NCBI RefSeq assembly: GCF_963920485.1
Contig: NZ_OY986431.1
Coordinates: 682,001-746,000, forward strand
DNA length: 64,000 nucleotides
Direction: 5' to 3'
Origin: Cyanobium usitatum str. Tous
GTDB taxonomy: Bacteria; Cyanobacteriota; Cyanobacteriia; PCC-6307; Cyanobiaceae
Shown here piece by piece: positions 2,479 through 35,883 of this stretch; position 1 is the first letter of the stretch, and every line of letters starts with the position of its first letter. A program made the position numbers and the translations under genes. The notes under the pieces were generated by a model, which saw only the letters and a program-made list of their open reading frames with translations, did not search any database and had not been told where the DNA came from.

Positions 2479-4092
2479 ATGACGCTCTCCGGCAGTTCCC
2501 TGTTCAACGCTGCCGGCGGCCTGGGACTGTTTTTGCTGGGTATGGGACTGATGACGGAGGCCTTGCGCAGCTTGGCGGGCAACAGCCTGCGTCAGGCCCT
2601 GCTGCGCTTCACCCGATCTCCCTGGAGCGGTGCCGCCGCGGGGGCGATCGGCACGGCCCTAGTGCAATCTTCAACCGCCACCACCGTGGCCACGGTGGGG
2701 TTTGTCAGCGCTGGGCTGCTCAGCTTCCAGGCCTCGCTGGGGATCATCTTCGGGGCCAACGTGGGCAGCACGGGCCTGGGCTGGCTGGTGGCCCTTTTCG
2801 GCATCAAGTTTGAGCTGGCCGGGGTGATGGTACCGCTGCTGCTGGTGGGGGCCTGCTTGCGGCTGCTGGGCCGCGGCCGCCAGGCGCTGCTGGGTCAGGC
2901 CTTGGCTGGGCTAGCGCTGCTGTTTTTGGGTATCGACGCGCTGCAGGAGGCGCTGGCTGGTCAGGGGTTGCTGCTTGATCCGGCCCGCTTTGATGCATCC
3001 CTGCCGGGGGGGCGGCTGCAGTTGCTGCTGCTCGGTCTGCTCAGCACGGTGATCACCCAATCTTCGGGGGCGGGGGTGGCCACCACCCTGGCGGCCTTGG
3101 CGAGCGGGGTTATTGGCCTGCCCCAGGCCTGTGCCCTGGTGATCGGCATGGATGTGGGAACTACCGTCACCGCCGTGATGGCCTCGCTTGGCGCCAGCCT
3201 CAGCGCCCGCCGCACCGCGGCGGCTCATGTGATCTTCAACCTCCTCACCGCCATCGGGGCCTTCCTGCTGCTGCCGGCTTACCTGGCGCTGCTACGGCTG
3301 GGTTGGCCGGCCCTGAGCCAGCAGGACCCTGAATTTGCTCTCACCGCTTTCCACACCGGTTTCAACCTGCTTGGTGTGCTGCTTGTGCTGCCGTTCACCG
3401 CGCCATTTGCCGCCCTGATCCGGCGGGTGGTGCCGCAGGGGGAGGGACGCCTGATCGATGATCTGGCTGACACGCCCCCGGCCGATCCCGCTGCCGCCAT
3501 CGGCCTGGCCCGCCAGTCCCTGGAGGGGTGTCTGCTGGAAATGCTCCAGTTGCTGAGCGATGGGCTGGCTAGGGGCAACGGCAGGCCCGCCTCAGGCGCT
3601 CAGCGGCTGGCTGTGCTGCAGGCCGATTTAGATCGACTCCAGCTTTATCTCGATCAGATCCATCTAGCGCCGGGGCCGCGTCCGGGCAGCGATGAAGCGG
3701 CAAGGGAGGCCCTGCTCCACCTGCTGCATGGTCTTGATCATCTGCAGCGATTACATGAGCGTTGTGAAGAGGAGCAGGATCGCCTGCGCACCGCAGCCAC
3801 AAGCTCGAGTTTGGCTGGCGAGCGCCAGAAGCTCCTGGCCGCCCTTGAGCAGCTGCCCGGGCTGGTGCAGCAGGGCAGCTGGGCTCAAGCCAGCGCCCTG
3901 GTTAGTGCCTGTGCCCAGGCCGTACAACGCCGCGACGGGTCATACCGCCAGGAGGTGCTGGCTGCGGTGGCCAGGGGCGAGCTCGATGTCGATGCCGGCA
4001 CAGCCCGGCTGGAGGCGATTCGCTGGCTGCAGCGGGTGAGCCAGCACCTAGGGCGGGCCAGCTATCACCTCGGTGGCTCAGGGCTGCACTAG
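2479..4092 (+). CDS. Na+/phosphate cotransporter-like membrane protein with PhoU-like tail
   Basis: Likely a type II Na/Pi cotransporter (NptA-like) of the inner membrane, 537 aa. The N-terminal ~320 residues are hydrophobic and carry the two QSS motifs of the family: 'ALVQSSTATTVATVGF' near residue 60 and 'TVITQSSGAGVATTL' near residue 195. From about 340 to the end the protein is helical and charged, with leucine-rich helices like the PhoU domain often fused to these transporters. The ATG at 2479 follows directly after ackA in divergent orientation. The 3' end overlaps the 3' end of pyrC by 15 bp. Substrate is inferred from family. Two phosphate-binding proteins occur 6-10 kb downstream. 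Confidence 0.8.
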   Translation: MTLSGSSLFNAAGGLGLFLLGMGLMTEALRSLAGNSLRQALLRFTRSPWSGAAAGAIGTALVQSSTATTVATVGFVSAGLLSFQASLGIIFGANVGSTGLGWLVALFGIKFELAGVMVPLLLVGACLRLLGRGRQALLGQALAGLALLFLGIDALQEALAGQGLLLDPARFDASLPGGRLQLLLLGLLSTVITQSSGAGVATTLAALASGVIGLPQACALVIGMDVGTTVTAVMASLGASLSARRTAAAHVIFNLLTAIGAFLLLPAYLALLRLGWPALSQQDPEFALTAFHTGFNLLGVLLVLPFTAPFAALIRRVVPQGEGRLIDDLADTPPADPAAAIGLARQSLEGCLLEMLQLLSDGLARGNGRPASGAQRLAVLQADLDRLQLYLDQIHLAPGPRPGSDEAAREALLHLLHGLDHLQRLHERCEEEQDRLRTAATSSSLAGERQKLLAALEQLPGLVQQGSWAQASALVSACAQAVQRRDGSYRQEVLAAVARGELDVDAGTARLEAIRWLQRVSQHLGRASYHLGGSGLH

Positions 4093-5136
4093 CCGCCAGG
4101 GCAGGGTTTCTCCAGCATGGAAGGGCACCAGTTCGACGGCGGTGCCGGCCGCATCATTTAGGTGGAGCCGGCTGGGCACCTCCAGGGGCTGCCGCTCCAG
4201 GGTGACCGTGGCCTCGTTGAGCGGTAGCCCGTAAAACCGGGGCCCAAACTCCGAGGCGAAGGCCTCCAGCCTCTCCAGGGCATGCTCCTGCTCAAAAACC
4301 GCCGCGTAGCTCTCCAACGCAAATGGGGCATTGAAAATGCCAGCGCAGCCGCAGGCCGCTTCCTTGGCAGTGCGGGCGTGGGGTGCGGAATCGGTACCCA
4401 GGAAAAACTTCGGGTTGCCGGAGGTGGCGGCGCCCCGCAGGGCGATGCGGTGCAGTTCCCGCTTGGCCACCGGCAGGCAGTAGAGGTCGGGCCGCAGGCC
4501 GCCGGCAAACATGGCGTTGCGGTTGATGTGCAGGTGGTGGGGCGTGATCGTGGCGGCCAGATTGGCCGGGCCGCTGCGCACGAAATCGACCGCATCACTG
4601 GTGGTGATGTGCTCGAGCACCACCTTCAGCCCCGGGTGGCGTGCCAGCAGGGGGGCCAGGTGCCGCTCGATGAACACCGCCTCGCGATCGAAGATGTCGA
4701 TGTCAGCGCTGGTGACCTCGCCGTGGATCAGCAGGGGCATGCCGATGCGCTCGAGGGTGTCGAACACGGGCGTGAGCGCCTCGATTGAGCTGACGCCGGC
4801 GGCGGAATTGGTGGTGGCATGGGCGGGATAGAGCTTGCAGGCCACCCAGGCCCCCTGGCGGAAGCCCCGTTCGATCTCAGCGGGGTCGATGGCGTCGGTG
4901 AGGTATGCCGTCAGCAGTGGTTCGAAGCGACTGCCGTCGGGCAAGGCTTCGCGGATGCGGCGGCGATAGGCCTCGGCTGCCGCCGCAGTGGTGATAGGCG
5001 GGCTCAGATTTGGCATCACGATCGCCCGGGCGAATTGGCGGGCCGTAGCCAGGGCGACGGCCTGGAGCATGGAGCCATCCCGCAGATGCACATGCCAGTC
5101 ATCGGGTTGACGCAGGCTCAGCTGCTGGCTCGGCAT
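4078..5136 (-). CDS. pyrC: Dihydroorotase
   Basis: Cyclises N-carbamoyl-aspartate to dihydroorotate in pyrimidine synthesis. The 352-aa length and the N-terminus PDDWHVHLRDG place it in the short, homodimeric E. coli-type class: HVHLR supplies two zinc-ligand histidines. Further motifs are KLYPAHATTNS (with the lysine that becomes carboxylated), LLIHGEV, VVLEHITT and FFLGTDSAPH, where the aspartate is catalytic. The start MPSQQLSLRQPDDW fits the family. It is convergent with the Na/Pi transporter gene, overlapping by 15 bp. PyrFE is on the same strand 3 kb downstream but separated by other genes. Confidence 0.95.
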   Translation of the reverse strand: MPSQQLSLRQPDDWHVHLRDGSMLQAVALATARQFARAIVMPNLSPPITTAAAAEAYRRRIREALPDGSRFEPLLTAYLTDAIDPAEIERGFRQGAWVACKLYPAHATTNSAAGVSSIEALTPVFDTLERIGMPLLIHGEVTSADIDIFDREAVFIERHLAPLLARHPGLKVVLEHITTSDAVDFVRSGPANLAATITPHHLHINRNAMFAGGLRPDLYCLPVAKRELHRIALRGAATSGNPKFFLGTDSAPHARTAKEAACGCAGIFNAPFALESYAAVFEQEHALERLEAFASEFGPRFYGLPLNEATVTLERQPLEVPSRLHLNDAAGTAVELVPFHAGETLPWRLVQP

Positions 5137-5265
5137 GGCGCGGGATCGGTGGTGGTGAAACTGGTAAGGATTCGTGTCGGGAAGGCAGTGTTGCCCCGGG
5201 CACCAAGTCCTCTGTTTAGCGTTGTCTAGAGCTCGCCGGCGAGCATCCTTCTTAACCTTCCCAGC

Positions 5266-5490
5266 ATGACCGTTGCCCCCAAGCCCACGATCGGAGCATT
5301 GGAAGCTGGTTACTCCGGCTGCTGTAAGGCCCTGCGGCTACTGATCCGGGAAGGGCGCAGCTTGGAGGCGATCAAGCGCACCGTGGCCTGGGACCGACTC
5401 AGCCTGCTCCACTCCTGCCTACCCACCCGCTACAAGGAACCCGATTACCTCTACGCCCTGCTCAAACGGGAGGTGACCGAAGCGGTGTGA
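5266..5490 (+). CDS. Small cyanobacterial protein (DUF3136-like)
   Basis: A 74-aa soluble protein with the pattern GALEAGYSGCCKALRLLIREGRS, then a WDRLSLLHSCLP segment and the end YLYALLKREV. This looks like the small DUF3136 family that I know only from marine and freshwater Synechococcus/Prochlorococcus. The assignment is from memory of the family's sequence pattern. No function is known. It stands alone between divergent pyrC and the convergent broken AraC gene. Confidence 0.65.
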   Translation: MTVAPKPTIGALEAGYSGCCKALRLLIREGRSLEAIKRTVAWDRLSLLHSCLPTRYKEPDYLYALLKREVTEAV

Positions 5491-5506
5491 ATCCTTATGG
5501 AAGGGC

Positions 5507-6586
5507 TTAGCCGTGTAGGCGCCGCCCTTCACGCAACATCTCTGAGGGGCGAATGCCGTAGGTGTTGTGGAAGTCGCGGCTGAAGGAGGAGAGGTTGCTA
5601 AAGCCCAGTTTTGAGGAGATGCCGGCAACGCTGTCCCTTGGCGAGGGGTTGAGCAGGTGCTGCCGGGCCAGGCCAAGGCGCTGGCGGCGGATCCATTGGA
5701 TTGGTCCGCAACCGAAGCGCTTGCTGAAGGCGAGCTGCAGGTTGCGCCTCGAATAGCCGCTGCGCTGCTCCAGCTGGGTGAGATTGATTGGTGATTACAG
5801 ATTGGCCCCAATCCATTCCAGCAGTTCTTCGAAGATCAGCTCCCTGGAGAGCCCCTTTCCCTCACCGCCATCGAGTTGGGGGCAGAGGGCCAGGGCCAGG
5901 ATGCGATAGATGAGGTCGTCGATCTGCAGCGCCGCCAGATCGCCACGGGCTTGCAGTTCCGGCGCATCCAGCAGGGCAAAGGCCCGGCGCATGGTGATAA
6001 GCAGTGTGGCCTGCCGGTTCTCGGTCATTGAGAGCACCTGGGGACGCTGCAGATCGGGGACAAAGCGTCTACCGGAGAGCCCCATGCCGCCGATGGCAGC
6101 GGCCGTGTCCTGCAATCGCTGTAGGTCTACGTGCAGCACCAGCCCGTTGTAGTGCCCAGTGGTGTAGTTGTAAGAGAAGCCAGGGTTGAAGTAGAGGGGT
6201 GCTTCAGCGTGAATGTGGAAGGTGTTTCCATCAACTCCGTAGGAAGATTCCCCCTGGTAGCAGATGTTGATTGCGCCTACGCCGGGGTTATCACCGATGC
6301 GGCCATGGATAGGGCTTGTATATCCAGAGGTGAGGGTGAGGTCTCCAGCCAAGGCAGTGCTGGCCCGGTGCCGAAACGGATTGAGCAAGGGGTTGCGAGG
6401 GGCAAAATCCTCTACTGGAAAGTGCTGGGCCAGCTTGGTAGCTAGGGCCTGGGGATCCAAATCCACCACCGCTTGCTGGTCGTGGAACACCAGGGGGAAC
6501 TGGGAGACAGGATCCAAGCCACACCAAAATCGGTGGTCAGACCCTAATGAGAGCCTGCTGCGGCTCCAGCATCTGGGCAGCAGCAT
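5507..6586 (-). pseudogene. AraC-family regulator interrupted by an in-frame TAA
   Basis: The frame starting at 6586 encodes about 263 aa of an AraC-type N-terminal sensor domain and ends in TAA at 5795-5797. The same frame continues without another stop to 5507, giving SPINLTQLEQRSGYSRRNLQ, then LAFSKRFGCGPIQWIRRQRL, and then GISSKLGFSNLSSFSRDFHN with YGIRPSEMLRE. That is a complete double helix-turn-helix AraC DNA-binding domain. There is therefore one nonsense codon exactly between the sensor and DNA-binding domains and no frameshift. A single change in a sense codon such as CAA would explain it. It may be a recent pseudogene, a sequencing error or, less likely, a read-through site. The upstream start is uncertain. 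Confidence 0.8.
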
Positions 6587-28021: not shown

Positions 28022-28702
28022 TCAGTAGCCCAAGGGGGTGGGCTCTTGGCGCAGCTGCAGATCGGCCCAGTCCAGAAGGGCCGGCCAGGAGCGCACCCGC
28101 TCAAACACCCGGCGATGGCCCTCACTGTTGAGGTGCAGGCCGTCGTTGCTCAGCCATAGGGGCCAGTCGGAATCGGCCAGCAGCCCCTCCAGCAAGGGCA
28201 GGAACGGCACATTCGCCTCCAGGCAGGCCTCTTCCAGCAGGGCCTCGTAGCGACGGATGTCTGCCAGGGAATACCAGAGCACCCCGGCGTAGGGCATGGC
28301 GCTCTCCTCCACCGGGGTGAGCCCGATCACATGCACCGCAGCGATCTCCTTGGCCTTGTGCAGCAGCTGCTGCAAGCCAAACAAAAAGCCTTCGGCATCC
28401 AGCTGGGGGCGCCCATCAGGCCGTCCCACTCGGGCGGTGTCGTTGAGGCCTATGCCGAGCAGGATCCCCTGCGGCAGCTGGCGCCGTAGCTCACCGCGGC
28501 AGCCAACCTCAGCGCTGAGGCGGGCTGCCAGTCGCTCCAGGCCATCGCCACGCACGCCGAGGTTGTAGAGCACCGGGCCGCCCGGCAGTTCCATCCAGTG
28601 GCGCCGCAGCCGCTCGCACCAGCCCCCCTCAAGGGGATCACCCCAGCCAAAAACACCGCTATCGCCAAGTGCCACCAGCTTCCTGGGGATGGCCATCACC
28701 AT
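28022..28702 (-). CDS. SGNH/GDSL-family hydrolase
   Basis: A 226-aa esterase/lipase-like protein. Block I is KLVALGDSGVFGWGDPLEGG with the nucleophile Ser in GDS. Block III is GILLGIGLNDTARVG with the Asn. Block V is LSNDGLHLNSEGHRRVFERV with catalytic Asp and His. There is no signal peptide. The start (ATG 28702 or 28696) lies within the end of the upstream permease gene, an overlap of about 40 bp, so it belongs to the ABC transporter operon. Its substrate and its connection to the transporter are unknown. Confidence 0.85.
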   Translation of the reverse strand: MVMAIPRKLVALGDSGVFGWGDPLEGGWCERLRRHWMELPGGPVLYNLGVRGDGLERLAARLSAEVGCRGELRRQLPQGILLGIGLNDTARVGRPDGRPQLDAEGFLFGLQQLLHKAKEIAAVHVIGLTPVEESAMPYAGVLWYSLADIRRYEALLEEACLEANVPFLPLLEGLLADSDWPLWLSNDGLHLNSEGHRRVFERVRSWPALLDWADLQLRQEPTPLGY

Positions 28703-30245
28703 GGGGGGTCTCCAGCAGCCACTGGCGTGCGCGGTCGCTGAGATCTTCCCCCAGCAAGGTCAGCAGCGAGTAGGCCAGCACCAGGGCCAGCAGTTGGTCG
28801 CCGGCAAACGAACTCAGGGCTTCCAGCAGCTGGCTGCCCAAACCCGTGGCTCCCACCAGCCCCACTACAACCGATTCGCGCAAAATCACATCAGCCCGGT
28901 AGGCGCCATAGGCCAAGTAGGGCCGGGCCAGGCCGCTGAAGCGGCCGTAGAGCAGGGCCAGGCGCGGACCCACCCCTGCGGCCAGCAGGGCCTGCTCCTG
29001 TTTGCCGCCACTGGTTTCAGCGGCTTCTAGGAGTAGGCGGCCGAGAATGCCTAGGTTGTGGAAGCCCAGGGCAAGGGCGCCTGTGAGCACCCCGGGCTGG
29101 AGCACAAACAGCAGCAACAGGGCCGTCAGCGGTGGCGGCCATAGCCGGCCCAGGGCCCACAGCCCCCGCACCAGCGCCCCCGCCGCCGGCCAGGGCGTCG
29201 CAAGCAGCAGCAGCAGCGGCGCCAACCCCACAGCTAGGGCCGCGGCTACCAAGGTGAGCACCAGGGTGTTGCCGATCAGGCTCGGCCAGGGCAGGGCGGC
29301 CACGGCTCCCCAGTCGGCGGCGCCCAGCGGTGGCAGGCCTTGCCACTGCAACAGGGTGGCGGGCTGCACCTCGAGGCGCCAGGCCACCACCACCAACACG
29401 GGCAGCAGGACCATGGCCCCAGCCACCATCTCCTGGCCCTGGCTGCCCACCCCCCGCTTGCTCAGTCCCAGCCGTGCCGGCATGGCCCAGCGCCGCCGCA
29501 GCCAGCCCATCAGGGCTTCCAGCAGCAGCATCACCGCCAGCAACGCCCACAGGCCGCTCCAAAGCTCGTTGAAGGCCAGCGATTGCAGGGTGAGGCGCAG
29601 CTCGGTGCCCAGCCCGCCCAGGCCAAAAACCCCCAGCAGGGTGGCGCTGCGCAAGGCGCATTCGAGCCGGTAGCCGCTGTAGCTGATCACCTGGGGCAGC
29701 AGGGGTGGCCCCAGGGCCGTGAATAGGGCGGTTGGGGCGGGGCTACCGCCGCAGCGCAGGGCTTCCAGGCTGGCGGTGGGCAGGGCATCCAGCAGGTCGC
29801 TGACCACCCGGGCTACCAGCGCTCCAAAGGGAATGGCGATTGCCACTACCGCCACCACTGGTTGCAGCCCGACCACCTGCAGCAGCAGCAGCCCCCAGAG
29901 CAGTTCGTGAATCGAGCGCGGTATGGCTAGTAGGCGGCGTATCCAGCTGGCTGGAGCGGCGCTGCCGTAGCAGGTGCGCCACACCACCCTTGAACTAGCG
30001 ATTCCCAGCACCAAGCCCAGCACCAGGCTGCCGGCCCAGCCCAATAGGGCCATGCCGGCTGTCACGGCAAGGCCACCCAGCACCGAGCCCAGCACTATTG
30101 GATGCAGGGAAGGCCGCAGGGCCGCGGCAGCAAATTGCCCCACCAGCTCCCAGCCACCGCCATGGCTGATCCCCGGCAGCAACGCCAGCAGCGGCAGCAC
30201 AACTAGGGCGGGCAGCAACACCCACAACGGCGCCGCTGGTCTCAT
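28659..30245 (-). CDS. ABC transporter permease, fused two-domain PhnE type
   Basis: A 528-aa inner-membrane permease with two PhnE-like halves. The first half has the EAA loop SLEALRCGGSPAPTALFTAL (residues ~165-185) and the second has KQEQALLAAGVGPRLALLYG (~430-450). Family segments such as IPRSIHELLWGLLLLQVVGL and YRLECALRSATLLGVFGLGG match phosphonate/phosphite permeases. Prochlorococcus PhnE is also long and fused. It overlaps the ATPase gene by 4 bp. Substrate could be phosphonate, phosphite or selenate. Confidence 0.85.
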   Translation of the reverse strand: MRPAAPLWVLLPALVVLPLLALLPGISHGGGWELVGQFAAAALRPSLHPIVLGSVLGGLAVTAGMALLGWAGSLVLGLVLGIASSRVVWRTCYGSAAPASWIRRLLAIPRSIHELLWGLLLLQVVGLQPVVAVVAIAIPFGALVARVVSDLLDALPTASLEALRCGGSPAPTALFTALGPPLLPQVISYSGYRLECALRSATLLGVFGLGGLGTELRLTLQSLAFNELWSGLWALLAVMLLLEALMGWLRRRWAMPARLGLSKRGVGSQGQEMVAGAMVLLPVLVVVAWRLEVQPATLLQWQGLPPLGAADWGAVAALPWPSLIGNTLVLTLVAAALAVGLAPLLLLLATPWPAAGALVRGLWALGRLWPPPLTALLLLFVLQPGVLTGALALGFHNLGILGRLLLEAAETSGGKQEQALLAAGVGPRLALLYGRFSGLARPYLAYGAYRADVILRESVVVGLVGATGLGSQLLEALSSFAGDQLLALVLAYSLLTLLGEDLSDRARQWLLETPHGDGHPQEAGGTWR

Positions 30246-30988
30246 GCCCCTGGGGTCCCGGCGTAAAGCTCCTCGAGCTGGCCTGGCTCAAGGCTGGCCA
30301 TGGGTTGGTCAAAGACAAGGCGGCCGGCCCGCAGCCCCAGCACCCGATCAAAACCAGCCAGCAAATCGGGACGGTGCAGGCTCAGCAGCAAGGCCCGAGG
30401 CGGCTTGGCAAGGTCTAGTAGCAGCGTTAAAAGCTCGTCGGCCAGGCGGGGATCAAGGCTGGCTAAGGGTTCATCGGCTAGCAGCAGTTGGGGCTCCTGT
30501 CGCAGTAGTCGGGCTAGGGCCACCCGCTGGCGCTGGCCGCCGGAGAGGGCGGAGACGGGCTGGTTGAGCAGGGCTGGATCGAGATCAAGCCGCTGCAACA
30601 TCGTTGTGCAGGCCTTGGTTTCTAGGGGCATCAGCAGGTTGAGCAGGGCCCGCGGCCAGCCCCAGACCGCTAGCCGGGCGGCGTTGAGGTTTTGCTGCAC
30701 GGTCAGCTCCTCGATCAGGCGCAGGTCCTGCCAGAGGGTGCCGATCCGGGCCTGCTGCCTTCGCCGGGCCCGTCCGCTGCGGGCCCGGGCCTCCCCCTGC
30801 CAAAACACCCTGCCCTGCTGCGGGGTCAGCAAGCCATTGGCCACGGCAAGCAGGGTGCTTTTGCCAGCACCGCTGGGACCCAGCAGGGCAATCCGTTCAC
30901 CGGCATCAACCTGCAGCGATACCCCATCAAGGCGAGGCTGGCTGCGGCCCTTGACGGTGATGTCTTGGAGAATCAGTAGGGACGTCAC
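30242..30988 (-). CDS. ABC transporter ATP-binding protein, PhnC type
   Basis: A 248-aa ATPase with a GTG start at 30988 (TSLLILQDITVKGRSQPRLD). Walker A is LLGPSGAGKSTLLAVANGLL, the Q-loop segment IGTLWQDLRLIEELTVQQN is PhnC-like, the signature is ALSGGQRQRVALARLL and Walker B is LLLADEPLASLDPRLADELL. It is coupled to the permease gene by an ATGA overlap. The matching substrate-binding protein is at 34957-35883, separated by the EF-hand cassette. Confidence 0.88.
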   Translation of the reverse strand: MTSLLILQDITVKGRSQPRLDGVSLQVDAGERIALLGPSGAGKSTLLAVANGLLTPQQGRVFWQGEARARSGRARRRQQARIGTLWQDLRLIEELTVQQNLNAARLAVWGWPRALLNLLMPLETKACTTMLQRLDLDPALLNQPVSALSGGQRQRVALARLLRQEPQLLLADEPLASLDPRLADELLTLLLDLAKPPRALLLSLHRPDLLAGFDRVLGLRAGRLVFDQPMASLEPGQLEELYAGTPGA

Positions 30989-31020
30989 ATGCGGGCCTGG
31001 TTCATCTGGTGATCTGGCTT

Positions 31021-31251
31021 TTAGCCTTGCCCGCTCAGTATTTCTTGCAATTTTGCCTGCAGGCTGTCGCGAACCTCCGGATCTCCCACCAATCGCAGGA
31101 TTCCTTCCCGGGGCCACCAGTTGAGCTTGAGATTGCTGACGCCATCGTTAAAGACGGCCAGCTCAAAAGCCCCCTTGTGTTGCCATTCACACGGCACCCC
31201 AAGTTGGGCAACCAGCTGCTTGAGCTCGTCCAGGGATCCCTTGAACTCCAC
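31021..31251 (-). CDS. Small conserved hypothetical protein
   Basis: A 76-aa soluble protein (EFKGSLDELKQLVAQLGVPC, then NLKLNWWPREGILRLVGDPE) with an alpha-beta pattern and a C-terminal helix. I do not recognise a named family. It ends 32 bp before the PhnC-type gene on the same strand and may be the first gene of that operon, or the remains of the junction where the operon was split. Confidence 0.55.
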   Translation of the reverse strand: MEFKGSLDELKQLVAQLGVPCEWQHKGAFELAVFNDGVSNLKLNWWPREGILRLVGDPEVRDSLQAKLQEILSGQG

Positions 31252-31422: not shown

Positions 31423-32907
31423 ATGGTGTCAATATCCTCTCGTTCAGATGAATTCGTCGGTCTTTTTAGTCTGTTTGATCAAGACGGAGATGGGAAAATA
31501 TCTGCGGATGAAGTGGAGCATGTTCTCGCCAGCATGGCCGGAGTGATTGCTATTGAAGATCGCCAAGCTCTGCGTGATCTGGTTGGCTGCGATGGGGAGC
31601 TGGAGCTGGCGGCTTTCAGCGGCTGGGCCCAAGGCCGGCCAGGTTTGGCTGTTGCCTCATGCCTGCGCGAGATCTTTGAGTTAGTTGATACTGATGGCAG
31701 CGGCAGCCTCAATTTTCAGGAGCTGGAGGTGCTGCTCGCGGCCCTAGCGCCCTCGTGCGCCGATCTGCCAGCGGCAGATCGGTTGCTGGCGGCCCTCGAT
31801 CGAGATGGCGATAACTGCATCAGCGTTGAAGAATTTCTGCAGCTACTCGAAGCCGATGCGGTGATCGAGCTGTCGCTGGCAGATCTGAAGCGACTGAAAA
31901 AGACCCTGGCTCAGTATGTAAACGCCTCCAGCCGCCCCAGGGTTGCCTTGGTCGAGGTCGATTGCGACCTTGGTGCCGGCACGCCGGGAGCTGGTTCTGG
32001 CATTGATTTGCTCAAGCAGGCCGCTGCCCGTCAGCAGGGGCTGCGCCAAATCAGCGATCGTTTGATTGAGGAAATAAAGGATCAGACCAGGCCAGGTGTC
32101 CGAGCCGCGGAGCTGGGCTCCGCCACCGCCACCCCCCACGCACGCCATATCGAGACGATTGCCGGCGTGATGCGGGACGCGGCCGCCTTGGTGGCCTCCA
32201 CGCTGGAGCGCGGGCTGTTCCCAATCGTGATCGCTGGTGATCACTCCACGGCTGCCTCAACCATCGCTGGCATTCGCCAGGCCCATCCCGATCGGCGCCT
32301 AGGCGTGGTGTGGATCGATGCCCATGCCGATATCCATTCCCCATACACCACTCCCTCCGGCAACATGCACGGCATGCCTTTGGCCATTGCCTCGGCTCAC
32401 GACAACACCATGGAGGCCATCAACGAGCCCGATTCAACGACCAGGTTGCTTTGGCAAGAGCTCCAATGTCTCAATGGCACGGGGTATCCATCGATCACGC
32501 TTGAAGATCTAATTTATGTGGCAGTTCGTGATACGGAACCGGCAGAAAATGTCACACTTGAGCAGTTCTCTATCCCGGTTATTACGACGGATGATGTTCG
32601 GCGATTCGGACCAGAGCAGGCAGCTCAGCGCTGCTTAGACCATCTCAGCCAAGTCGAATTAATCTATGTGAGCTTCGATGTGGATTCCATGGACTCCACT
32701 ATCTGCAAGGGCACCGGCACGCCCGTGCCTGGTGGTCTTTGGGCTGATGAGGCTCGCCAGCTCACCCGGTACCTACTGGCAGACCCCAGGGTTTGCTGCT
32801 GGGAAATCTGTGAAATCAACCCCCATCTAGATAGTCTTAATACCTTGGCTGAAGTGTCACTTAGCGTTTATCAGGATGTGTTAGAGGTGCTCGACTCCCG
32901 CCTCTAG
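31423..32907 (+). CDS. EF-hand arginase (N-terminal calcium-binding module fused to ureohydrolase)
   Basis: A 494-aa fusion. Residues 1-145 hold three EF-hand loops: 19-30 (DQDGDGKISADE), 89-100 (DTDGSGSLNFQE) and 126-137 (DRDGDNCISVEE), plus a degenerate one near 54-65. From about 172 on is an arginase fold. Mn ligands are visible as GDHS (H274), DAHAD (D299, H301, D303) and DVD (D419, D421). The substrate loop DIHSPYTTPSGNMHG (303-317) aligns without gaps to the human arginase loop, retaining the T, S, N and catalytic H positions (T310, S312, N314, H316). Only the first Asn (human N130) becomes His305. That pattern favours arginase over agmatinase. It would split arginine to ornithine and urea. 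The urea transporter gene starts 4 bp after its stop. Calcium control is inferred. Confidence 0.88.
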   Translation: MVSISSRSDEFVGLFSLFDQDGDGKISADEVEHVLASMAGVIAIEDRQALRDLVGCDGELELAAFSGWAQGRPGLAVASCLREIFELVDTDGSGSLNFQELEVLLAALAPSCADLPAADRLLAALDRDGDNCISVEEFLQLLEADAVIELSLADLKRLKKTLAQYVNASSRPRVALVEVDCDLGAGTPGAGSGIDLLKQAAARQQGLRQISDRLIEEIKDQTRPGVRAAELGSATATPHARHIETIAGVMRDAAALVASTLERGLFPIVIAGDHSTAASTIAGIRQAHPDRRLGVVWIDAHADIHSPYTTPSGNMHGMPLAIASAHDNTMEAINEPDSTTRLLWQELQCLNGTGYPSITLEDLIYVAVRDTEPAENVTLEQFSIPVITTDDVRRFGPEQAAQRCLDHLSQVELIYVSFDVDSMDSTICKGTGTPVPGGLWADEARQLTRYLLADPRVCCWEICEINPHLDSLNTLAEVSLSVYQDVLEVLDSRL

Positions 32908-32911
32908 GTCG

Positions 32912-34549
32912 ATGGACAGGTCTGTGAAATCGGCTTTTGAGCTGCTTAGAGATTTGCTCGAGCCTGCTGTTGACCTGCCCTCCAGGCTTCAACAGCTGCT
33001 GCCCACCATGGGCACCCTGCATCAGCTGCACGGCCCTGTCGCGCGAATCAACCCCGGCCTGGTTTCGCTGCTGGCAGGTTTGCGTGGCATGGCCCAGGTG
33101 ATCTTCATTAACAATCCCCTCAGCGGTCTGGTGTTGCTGCTCGCCTTCCTGGTGCAGTCGCCTTGGTTTGCCCTGTTGGCCCTGCTGGGTACCGCAGCTT
33201 CCGACTGCACAGCTCGGCTCCTCGGCTTGGCGGAGGGATTGAGGAGCGAGGGTATCTACGGCTTCAACGGCGCCTTGGTGGGCTGCGCCGTCGCCAATTT
33301 CGCCCAGTTCGATAGCCCCCTCTCCAGCCTGATTTGGGCTGCTTTGGTGCTGCTTGGTGGGGCGCTGACCACCTTGCTGCTTGAGGGGCTGGGCAGGGGA
33401 ATCAACCGTTCCCTGGGGCTACCCCCACTCACCCTGCCGTTCATTCTTGTCACCTGGGGCTTGTTGGCGTTGGCTTCGCTTGCGCCGGCGGCGGCATTGG
33501 TGCTGGCCGAACCGGTCTCGATGCCCGAGCTGGCCAGCAGCTCCCAGGCCCTCAGGGATGGGCTGCTCCGATCCGCGGGTCAGGTTTTTCTCTGCTCCAA
33601 CCCCTGGAGTGGCTTGCTGGTGCTACTTGCCACAGCCCTAGCCAGCCCCCTTGCCGCGGGACTGGGTTTGCTTGGTGCCCTAGCTGGCATGGCAACGGGC
33701 CTGCTGCTCGATGCCCCTTTGGAGGCGATCGCCCAGGGCCTCTGGGGATACAACGGCTTGCTGGTGGCGATTGCCTTGGGGGGGATTTTTTACGCCCCCA
33801 GCTGGGCCAGTTTGGCGGTGGGTCTGGGCGGGGCGGCTCTGACGAGCCTGTTCCAGTTTTGTTGGAGCTTCACTCCAGCTCCGGGCTGGCCTTCGCTCAC
33901 CTTGGCTTTTGTGCTTGCCACCTGGCTGATTCAGCTGCTGGTGCGTCGTGCCTTGCCGGCCCTGCTTCCGGTTTCGCTGCACGCCATCTTGACCCCGGAG
34001 GAGCATCGTCAGCGCTTTGTGTTGGCCCGCACCCTGCTTGCCGATTTTCGTCAAAACCTGCACCTGGCAATCACAGGCCAGCGCCGCGCTTTTTTGGTTG
34101 GACGGGTTCCGGCGCAGCTGCGGCAACAAATGTCGGCCTTGTTTCAGCGACTCGATCAAGACGGCAATGGCGTTATCAGTGCGGCGGAGCTGCTCGAGGG
34201 TCTGGGGATTGATCCCCAGCAAGCCGGAGAGGCTGGGGTGCTGGCAGCCCAGTTGGCAAGTGTGCTGCAGGCCATGGACCTGGATGGGGATGGCCGGGTG
34301 GATGCTGAGGAGTTTGGTGAGCTGATGCTTCGCCTGCAGCGCTTGCGCCTTGGCGAGGCTCGCCTGCTCAACTATTTGCTGCCAATCGATGCCAACGGCG
34401 ATGACCGGCTTGATCCGGCCGAGCTCAGACGTCTGCTGGCCAGTGTGGGCGAACGGCCTCTTAATGCTGAGGAGGAGTCCTTTCTCTTCAGCCGCTCTGC
34501 CGATGGCCTCACCTGGCTCCAGTTTGTAGACCAGCTGCTACTTACATGA
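32912..34549 (+). CDS. UT-family urea transporter with C-terminal EF-hands
   Basis: A 545-aa protein. Residues ~45-360 form a UT-type urea channel of two repeats. The first repeat has VIFINNPLSGLVLLLAFLVQ, GIYGFNGALVGCAVANF and the selectivity segment LPPLTLPFILVTW. The second has LFCSNPWSGLLVLLATALAS, GLWGYNGLLVAIALGG and WPSLTLAFVLATW. After a basic linker, three EF-hand loops follow near residues 412-423 (DQDGNGVISAAE), 455-466 (DLDGDGRVDAEE) and 492-503 (DANGDDRLDPAE). It is coupled to the EF-hand arginase gene. It could release or recapture the urea made by arginase. Gating by calcium is inferred. I do not know this fusion from the described UT proteins. Confidence 0.87.
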   Translation: MDRSVKSAFELLRDLLEPAVDLPSRLQQLLPTMGTLHQLHGPVARINPGLVSLLAGLRGMAQVIFINNPLSGLVLLLAFLVQSPWFALLALLGTAASDCTARLLGLAEGLRSEGIYGFNGALVGCAVANFAQFDSPLSSLIWAALVLLGGALTTLLLEGLGRGINRSLGLPPLTLPFILVTWGLLALASLAPAAALVLAEPVSMPELASSSQALRDGLLRSAGQVFLCSNPWSGLLVLLATALASPLAAGLGLLGALAGMATGLLLDAPLEAIAQGLWGYNGLLVAIALGGIFYAPSWASLAVGLGGAALTSLFQFCWSFTPAPGWPSLTLAFVLATWLIQLLVRRALPALLPVSLHAILTPEEHRQRFVLARTLLADFRQNLHLAITGQRRAFLVGRVPAQLRQQMSALFQRLDQDGNGVISAAELLEGLGIDPQQAGEAGVLAAQLASVLQAMDLDGDGRVDAEEFGELMLRLQRLRLGEARLLNYLLPIDANGDDRLDPAELRRLLASVGERPLNAEEESFLFSRSADGLTWLQFVDQLLLT

Positions 34550-34956: not shown

Positions 34957-35883
34957 TCAGCGGATCTTGCCGATCTGGCGCCCCACCTGCTCGATCTGCT
35001 TGTATTCGCCCGGCTTCACCGTGGTGAATTGCTGGGCGCCAAACAGGCTCAAGATCTGCTTTTGCTCTGGATCTGTGGATCGCCAGCTGATGATCGATTG
35101 GCGCAGCTTGGCGCTGAAGCCCTTGCCGAAGCGCTGGTCGAGGTTGGGCTGGCCCAGCCAGAGGTAGTCGGGGTAGCTGGGAGTGCGCCATATCTGCACC
35201 ACCTTGCTGCGGTTGGCCTTGCCGCTGCGCAGGCTGCTCTTCCACACTTGCTCATTGACGGCGCCGGCGTCGTAGGTGCCGCTCTGCACCAGGGCGATGG
35301 TGGCGTCGTGGCTGCCACTGAAGCCCGGTGCGCCGCCGGCGAAATCAGCCAACTTGACGCCCGCCTGAGCGAGGAAATACTGGGGCATTAGCCGGCCGGA
35401 GGTGGAGCTTTCCGAGCCGAAGGTGAAGCGCTTGCCCTTGAGAGTCACCAGTCCTTTCTGGCTCTGGATTGGTTTGAGACCGCTGCGGGCATTGGCGATA
35501 AATACGGTGTAAAACTGCGCATCGATGTCTCGCTGGGCAAGCATCTGGGCACCGGGTTTTTGCAGGCTGGCCTGCACGCCGGTGAGACCGCCAAACCAGA
35601 CCAGGTCAAGACTGCCTGTCCGGAAGGCGCTTACAGCAGCTGTGTAGTCGGTGACCGGCACGTAGGCAACCTTCACACCTAGTTGCTGGCTGAGCTCATC
35701 GGCCACCAGGCCGTAAAGGCGATTCAGCTTTTCGGGGTTCTGGTCGGGGATGGCTCCGATGCGCAGCACCGGCTGGGCTATGGCCGTCGGCAGCAGGGAA
35801 GCGGGCACGGGGGGGAAGACCGCCGGTAGCAGGGCTAGACAAAGCCCCGCCATTACGGCGGTCCAACGTTCTCGGGTAGGCAT
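34957..35883 (-). CDS. PhnD-like substrate-binding protein (putative selenate/phosphonate/phosphite)
   Basis: A 308-aa periplasmic protein with a signal peptide (residues 1-~37, ending SLLPTAIAQ). The mature start is LRIGAIPDQNPEKLNRLYGL, then VAYVPVTDYTAAVSAFRTGS, LDLVWFGGLTGVQA, FTFGSESSTSGRLMPQYFLA and APGFSGSHDATIALVQSGTY. The whole pattern, ending EQVGRQIGKIR, is close to proteins usually named putative selenate-binding, a branch of the PhnD family. It should feed the PhnC/PhnE-type transporter at 28.7-31.0 kb, now 4 kb away across the EF-hand genes. Whether the ligand is selenate or a reduced phosphorus compound is open. Confidence 0.82.
   Translation of the reverse strand: MPTRERWTAVMAGLCLALLPAVFPPVPASLLPTAIAQPVLRIGAIPDQNPEKLNRLYGLVADELSQQLGVKVAYVPVTDYTAAVSAFRTGSLDLVWFGGLTGVQASLQKPGAQMLAQRDIDAQFYTVFIANARSGLKPIQSQKGLVTLKGKRFTFGSESSTSGRLMPQYFLAQAGVKLADFAGGAPGFSGSHDATIALVQSGTYDAGAVNEQVWKSSLRSGKANRSKVVQIWRTPSYPDYLWLGQPNLDQRFGKGFSAKLRQSIISWRSTDPEQKQILSLFGAQQFTTVKPGEYKQIEQVGRQIGKIR

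Follow-up and report, generated by a model that had tools for sequence, protein, structure and literature searches.

Adjacent genes for an EF-hand arginase and an EF-hand urea transporter in Cyanobium, a candidate Ca2+-responsive pair

The locus

The window analysed here is a stretch of 64,000 nucleotides (contig NZ_OY986431.1, positions 682,001 to 746,000 of the forward strand) from the complete, 2.66 Mb genome of Cyanobium usitatum str. Tous. It holds two genes on the + strand, at 31423-32907 and 32912-34549 and separated by 4 bp, of which the first encodes an arginase with an N-terminal EF-hand module and the second a urea transporter (UT) with a C-terminal one. Such a pair had been proposed in a sequence-only reading of the window, whose gene positions and strands hold, and domain searches (arginase PF00491, UT PF03253, EF-hands) confirmed both fusions above curated cut-offs. 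The features of the pair are:

31423..32907, + strand: EF-hand arginase, 494 amino acids (aa), from Pfam/NCBIfam profiles, structure matches and an AlphaFold model
31477..31512, + strand: arginase EF-hand loop 1, DQDGDGKISADE (residues 19-30), ligands canonical in 20 of 22 homologues
31687..31722, + strand: arginase EF-hand loop 3, DTDGSGSLNFQE (residues 89-100), canonical in 23 of 23
31798..31833, + strand: arginase EF-hand loop 4, DRDGDNCISVEE (residues 126-137), canonical in 23 of 23
31936..32904, + strand: arginase catalytic domain (residues 172-494), with Mn ligands H274, D299, H301, D303, D419 and D421, plus H316 and E464
32332..32367, + strand: loop A, IHSPYTTPSGNM (residues 304-315, equivalent to human I129-L140), of full arginase length and with H305 at the position of N130
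32912..34549, + strand: EF-hand UT, 545 aa, from profile and structure matches
33074..33940, + strand: UT membrane domain (residues 55-343), from PF03253 and structure matches
34154..34189, + strand: UT EF-hand loop 1, DQDGNGVISAAE (residues 415-426), canonical in 35 of 36
34277..34312, + strand: UT EF-hand loop 2, DLDGDGRVDAEE (residues 456-467), canonical in 36 of 36
34388..34423, + strand: UT EF-hand loop 3, DANGDDRLDPAE (residues 493-504), canonical in 36 of 36

The EF-hand modules

Both proteins carry three 12-residue loops with acidic ligands at positions 1, 3, 5 and 12, as is required of an EF-hand. The claim of three loops per protein therefore stands, whereas the literal DxDxDG pattern ascribed to them is found in only two of the six (DQDGDG and DLDGDG); the other four (DTDGSG, DRDGDN, DQDGNG and DANGDD) depart from it by substitutions that a canonical EF loop allows. 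A fourth EF position in each module, degenerate in every sequence (EF2 of the arginase and EF4 of the UT), had been overlooked. Identity at the ligand columns is 77-82%, compared with 42-45% at the remaining EF columns, and the ratio of nonsynonymous to synonymous substitution rates lies between 0.09 and 0.40 in all four domains for close pairs of intact copies. The EF-hand-pair family PF13499 matches only the arginase and UT of the pair in the window's genome. In same-genus genomes without the pair it has no match in G010, G013, G014 and G015 and one weak frame in G012 (G and L numbers are our handles for the material compared), and in most members of the Cyanobium family nearly all PF13499 matches fall in the pair.

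We regard this pattern as strong evidence of selection for Ca2+ binding, although regulation does not follow from ligand conservation. The modules could instead buffer Ca2+ or stabilise the proteins without regulating them, as bacterial EF-hands are often structural and no result of our analysis points to a conformational switch. This is quite improbable in our judgement, because the Ca2+ ligands are retained while the rest of the module drifts and because, in the window's genome and its close relatives, the modules occur almost only on two functionally related proteins. A recent duplication of the EF module between arginase and UT is unsupported, as both profiles give a higher score to an unrelated EF protein of G374. 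L259 857-3256 of G374 encodes 799 aa, with four EF-hands in the N-terminal part followed by a C-terminal part that carries no assignment.

The arginase and its probable substrate

In Pfam, the arginase protein matches PF00491 over residues 174-479 (E 4.6e-49, above the curated cut-off), and it passes the curated cut-offs of EF-hand_1 (E 1.4e-20, three stretches) and EF-hand_7 (2.5e-15). Its best matches among solved structures are the Thermus, Bacillus and human arginases, accompanied by calmodulins and centrins. The AlphaFold model (mean predicted local distance difference test, pLDDT, 80) places four helix-loop-helix units ahead of an arginase fold, with helices on both sides of the EF loops, and it matches 2cev/1cev with an E value of 3e-20 and a template modelling (TM) score of 0.85-0.88 on the target. 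All six Mn ligands are kept, as had been claimed, and together with the equivalents of His141 and Glu277 (H316 and E464) they are invariant in 22 aligned sequences. The substrate-binding loop A also aligns without gaps to that of animal arginase, with T310, S312 and N314 in the places of T135, S137 and N139; what had gone unremarked is that the positions of human N130 and D183 hold His and Glu (N130H, D183E), invariantly across the 22 aligned clade members.

The substrate is most likely L-arginine, judging from loop A and the profile scores. Arginase models score the protein well above agmatinase and hutG models, with 190.4 bits for TIGR01229 (rocF; equivalog cut-off 227.6) and only 52.8 bits for TIGR01230 (agmatinase). 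The full length of loop A was decisive for the preference of arginine over agmatine in an earlier study, and agmatine-only activity required the loss of P132-T134 (PMC9224512), which loop A retains here. Another guanidino compound, such as agmatine, guanidinobutyrate, guanidine or an arginine derivative, would leave the UT to dispose of the resulting urea, and it has several observations in its favour: the N130H and D183E exchanges concern the positions that read the alpha-carboxylate and alpha-amino groups, an N130D arginase accepts agmatine (PMC9224512), the Symploca gene is preceded by a 1468-codon frame that is peptide synthetase-like by eye only, and the pair in G175 lies near a guanidine-I riboswitch and a guanidine-hydrolase-like operon. 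The nearest relatives of the catalytic domain, arginases of Bacteroidetes (41-47% identity) that share N130H and D183E, bear on both sides of the question. Two of them (L099 and L141) stand beside an arginine decarboxylase-like gene, but these EF-less relatives also adjoin argS and exceed the TIGR01229 cut-off (231.6 and 234.2 bits). Since the window's genome (G000) moreover owns a separate agmatinase, a substrate other than arginine seems unlikely.

An identity as guanidine hydrolase (GdmH/Sll1077) was rejected, as the protein lies on the arginase branch and G175 has a separate GdmH-like gene. About 2 kb from the EF-hand pair of that genome, L180 150-3627 holds hypB, a gene for an SsuA-type binding protein and an agmatinase-like gene whose size fits a guanidine hydrolase, along with a riboswitch of the guanidine-I class (78.8 bits in Rfam); another urea-releasing enzyme is thus encoded nearby.

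The urea transporter

The UT protein matches PF03253 in Pfam over residues 55-343 (E 1.9e-70, above the curated cut-off; profile positions 3-290 of 292), EF-hand_5 (4.2e-15) and EF-hand_7 (2e-12), and its matches among solved structures are the human and Desulfovibrio urea transporters plus calmodulins. Against TIGR03441 (yut) it scores 152.3 bits, below the equivalog cut-off of 274.6. Both halves carry the QV-F--NP-SG and GFNG/GYNG motifs. Two LP-T-like repeats had been reported; the first, LPPLTLPF, bears this out, but the second, WPSLTLAF, is only partly of this type. The AlphaFold model of the UT, built on a three-sequence alignment, had a pLDDT of 58, which is too poor, and was not used. 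UT channels are passive, and by their established topology both channel ends face the cytoplasm, so that both EF modules would meet cytosolic Ca2+.

A different UT fusion, with an M23 peptidase domain and without EF-hands, was noted in L240 (G540; 310-2448, Pfam) and L241 (G050; 301-2466), where it adjoins a frame that resembles diaminopimelate decarboxylase by eye.

Distribution and gene order

Among 60 relatives, the same six genomes encode both proteins, and the genes are adjacent in all six. Across 400 genomes of the family, EF-hand UTs were found in 40 genomes of six genera and this type of arginase in 24 genomes of four genera. Both genes are present in 23 of the 24, the exception being G395, which ends inside the arginase at a contig end, and the hypergeometric probability of this co-occurrence is 1.4e-25, a value that ignores shared ancestry. 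The census of adjacent pairs that had been suggested thus found the genes side by side and in the same order in 21 of the 23 genomes, in four genera. The other two, G366 and G374, have arginase and UT on different contigs, and the arginases of exactly these two unlinked cases are without EF-hands. Carriers include the complete single-contig genomes G099, G112, G137 and G175, and the pair is therefore no assembly fault. Its flanks vary (glnA in G137, G264 and G112; lipA in G099; cheB in G284; mutY and the guanidine-hydrolase operon in G175), and the retention of gene order amid changing flanks argues for a functional unit. One contig labelled 'Bifidobacterium breve' (L090) bears the cyanobacterial pair and corresponds to G347:C120.

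That the genes are chance neighbours, or an isolated assembly or strain oddity as the sequence-only reading had itself warned, could draw on the patchy distribution and the several pseudogenes, but we consider it refuted: the pair recurs in complete single-contig genomes, in four genera and with varied flanks, and the two proteins co-occur without linkage outside the family.

A further explanation is that the EF-hands serve assembly, bringing the soluble arginase to the membrane channel to form a urea-channelling complex in which Ca2+ would be structural or would gate assembly and would not regulate catalysis. Both partners bear a module with one degenerate EF position, contact could be made between EF-hands or between EF-hand and membrane, linkage is tight in the family, and the EF-less arginases of G366 and G374 are also the ones unlinked from the UT. 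We nevertheless find it doubtful as the main role. The EF-less arginase of G020 still adjoins an EF-hand UT, the two EF modules are not each other's special relatives, and the EF-hand UT persists in genomes without the arginase, from which it follows that its EF module is not solely an arginase dock and must act on the channel itself.

Relatives outside the family

EF-hand arginases with equivalent loop positions are found in G599, which belongs to another family, in Symploca sp. SIO2C1 (L092) and in a metagenome-assembled genome labelled 'Burkholderiales' (L093), a contig that may be mis-binned. G599 and Symploca are filamentous cyanobacteria of other families. Each also has an EF-hand UT, on a different contig from the arginase in G599 and not linked to it in Symploca (L258 923-2692), which indicates that the two proteins go together even without linkage. 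The earlier claim that they are encoded as one unit accordingly holds in the Cyanobium family and not in these filamentous relatives. Moorena/G720 has an arginase with a broken EF part, and a UT was looked for there and none was found; G538 and G731 have the EF-hand UT and no such arginase.

In the tree of the catalytic domain, the cyanobacterial members form one clade (100/100) apart from the arginases of Bacteroidetes, among which no EF-hands were seen in those examined. The tree label noEF does not denote absence of the module for Moorena/G720, where it is broken, or for G248, where it is cut by the contig end. Because the early branches, G599 and Symploca, carry EF-hands, the simplest reading would be a single fusion, with later loss of the EF-hands by G020 and by the G366/G374/LacPavin group. 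All intact UTs of the clade carry EF-hands in the UT tree, and the arginase partner was lost repeatedly.

Several neighbours of the outlying genes were noted by eye. Near the EF-hand arginase of G599 (L260 2866-4917 and 7077-9086) are two more EF-loop frames, a phosphoglycerate-mutase-like membrane protein and a NOX-like oxidase. The EF-hand UTs of filamentous relatives (L258 of Symploca, 2867-5739; L233 of G731, 2648-3757) lie near a nucleoside-hydrolase-like frame, and that of Symploca is also beside a 5'-nucleotidase-like frame with EF-hand loops of its own; a link of these UTs to purine breakdown is possible.

Surroundings of the pair in the window

The pair sits inside parts of a phosphonate/selenate-type ATP-binding cassette (ABC) transporter of opposite orientation (28659-31117 and 34957-35883, - strand), with a PhnC-like ATPase and a PhnE-like double permease on one side and a TIGR04553 binding protein on the other, an arrangement that looks like an insertion into this gene set. 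One further frame lies upstream of the arginase:

31024..31251, - strand: divergent 76-codon orphan frame, conserved, of uncertain membership in the system

The orphan frame gave no match to Pfam or NCBIfam. In genera g1 and g58 it accompanies the pair, and in two further genera (G188 and G061) it adjoins UTs, with 52-98% conservation; it is possibly a third component of the system. No sigma-70 promoter, terminator or riboswitch above chance level was found in the window.

Nitrogen metabolism and the proposed mechanism

Urease is encoded in all six pair-bearing relatives, and in the window's genome a gene for the UrtA importer adjoins urease. The AgrE/ArgZ family (TIGR00300) is absent from the 37 family members tested. 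Cyanobacterial Ca2+ rises early in nitrogen deprivation and also upon light/dark and salt change (PMC7065334).

A functional link between arginase and UT is well supported by recurrence, co-occurrence and ligand conservation. What we infer is an influence of Ca2+ on enzyme activity or urea flux, along with the substrate, the direction in which urea passes and any physical contact. We somewhat favour, from this comparative evidence, a pair in which arginase and urea channel would both sense Ca2+ and would together couple arginine breakdown to urea passage. When cytosolic Ca2+ climbs, the EF-hand module on each protein would bind it in the cytoplasm; binding would alter arginase activity and would open, close or relocate the passive UT channel, so that conversion of arginine to ornithine and urea would be matched to the fate of the urea, which would be kept for cytosolic urease or passed through the membrane. 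Cells that both produce urea and possess urease would lose nitrogen through a passive urea channel that stayed ungated, and this offers a reason for a shared switch. The likeliest sense of the switch would be that urea nitrogen is retained or re-captured under nitrogen stress, because all pair-bearing genomes tested have urease and the window's genome also has the UrtA gene. We give about even chances to the broader proposal of a bacterial second-messenger circuit, in which an enzyme and the channel that conducts its product both read cytosolic Ca2+ through EF-hands and the ion sets arginine breakdown jointly with urea permeability, the pair forming nearly the whole EF-hand complement in the smallest genomes.

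Several findings weigh against this coupling. The arginase falls below the rocF equivalog cut-off and carries the N130H and D183E exchanges noted above. EF-hand UTs without an arginase in several genomes and EF-less arginases in G020, G366, G374 and LacPavin indicate that coupling is not obligatory, and the pair is patchy and in places decaying, with arginase remnants upstream of the UT in G113 and G249 and broken UTs in G061, G181, G236, G256 and G314, all five of which are without the arginase. The NtcA box GTAN8TAC was found upstream in none of the genomes examined bar one chance-like site in G257, and NtcA control of the pair was rejected on that ground. G004 (L035 8280-9818) has an insertion sequence (IS)-type transposase gene that splits the EF-hand arginase and an intact EF-hand UT downstream, and is thus a natural arginase knock-out.

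Significance and comparison with known systems

Cyanobacterial Ca2+ signals have been measured, and to our knowledge few of their direct targets are known. As far as we know, the EF-hand UT is a first candidate for a urea channel gated by Ca2+. In some of the smallest free-living phototrophs, one enzyme and one channel for the same metabolite carry nearly all of the EF-hands, and the role of Ca2+ in such cells becomes testable with two purified proteins. The enzyme is also a candidate true arginase in a phylum where annotated arginases turned out to be agmatinase or guanidine hydrolase; two Synechocystis proteins formerly annotated as arginases have no arginase activity (PMC2242806). A 2007 survey of arginine catabolism in 24 cyanobacteria left EF-hands, calcium and urea transporters unmentioned (PMC2242806), and no paper on either architecture was found in open-access titles and abstracts, with subscription papers and preprints outside the search.

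The catalytic domain resembles arginases of the rocF type (TIGR01229, PF00491; the Thermus, Bacillus caldovelox and human arginase I structures) in fold, Mn ligands, catalytic His141/Glu277 and full loop A, and differs from them in the N-terminal EF-hand module of 160 residues, in N130H/D183E and in scoring 190 bits against 227.6. The arginases of Bacteroidetes beside argS (L099, L108, L141 and on an Aureibacter plasmid) share the catalytic domain with N130H and D183E, but those examined have no EF-hands and no UT neighbour was found. The window's UT shares the two-fold domain and motifs of its family (PF03253; dvUT, UT-A/UT-B) and adds the C-terminal EF-hand module, with the second LP-box degenerate and a score of 152 against the TIGR03441 cut-off of 274.6. 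NOX5-type oxidases and calredoxin likewise join an enzyme and EF-hands in a single chain as Ca2+ sensor-responders (PMC7317449, PMC4911631), but their catalytic parts are unrelated and they are without a matched enzyme-channel pair. The EF-hand Ca2+ sensor CSE (Asr1131) of filamentous cyanobacteria has a similar tie to nitrogen metabolism (PMC7065334) and is, in contrast, a small stand-alone protein, unfused to enzyme or channel. The guanidine hydrolase GdmH/Sll1077 is likewise a urea-releasing cyanobacterial ureohydrolase, but it belongs to the agmatinase-like branch and is represented in G175 by a separate gene near the pair.

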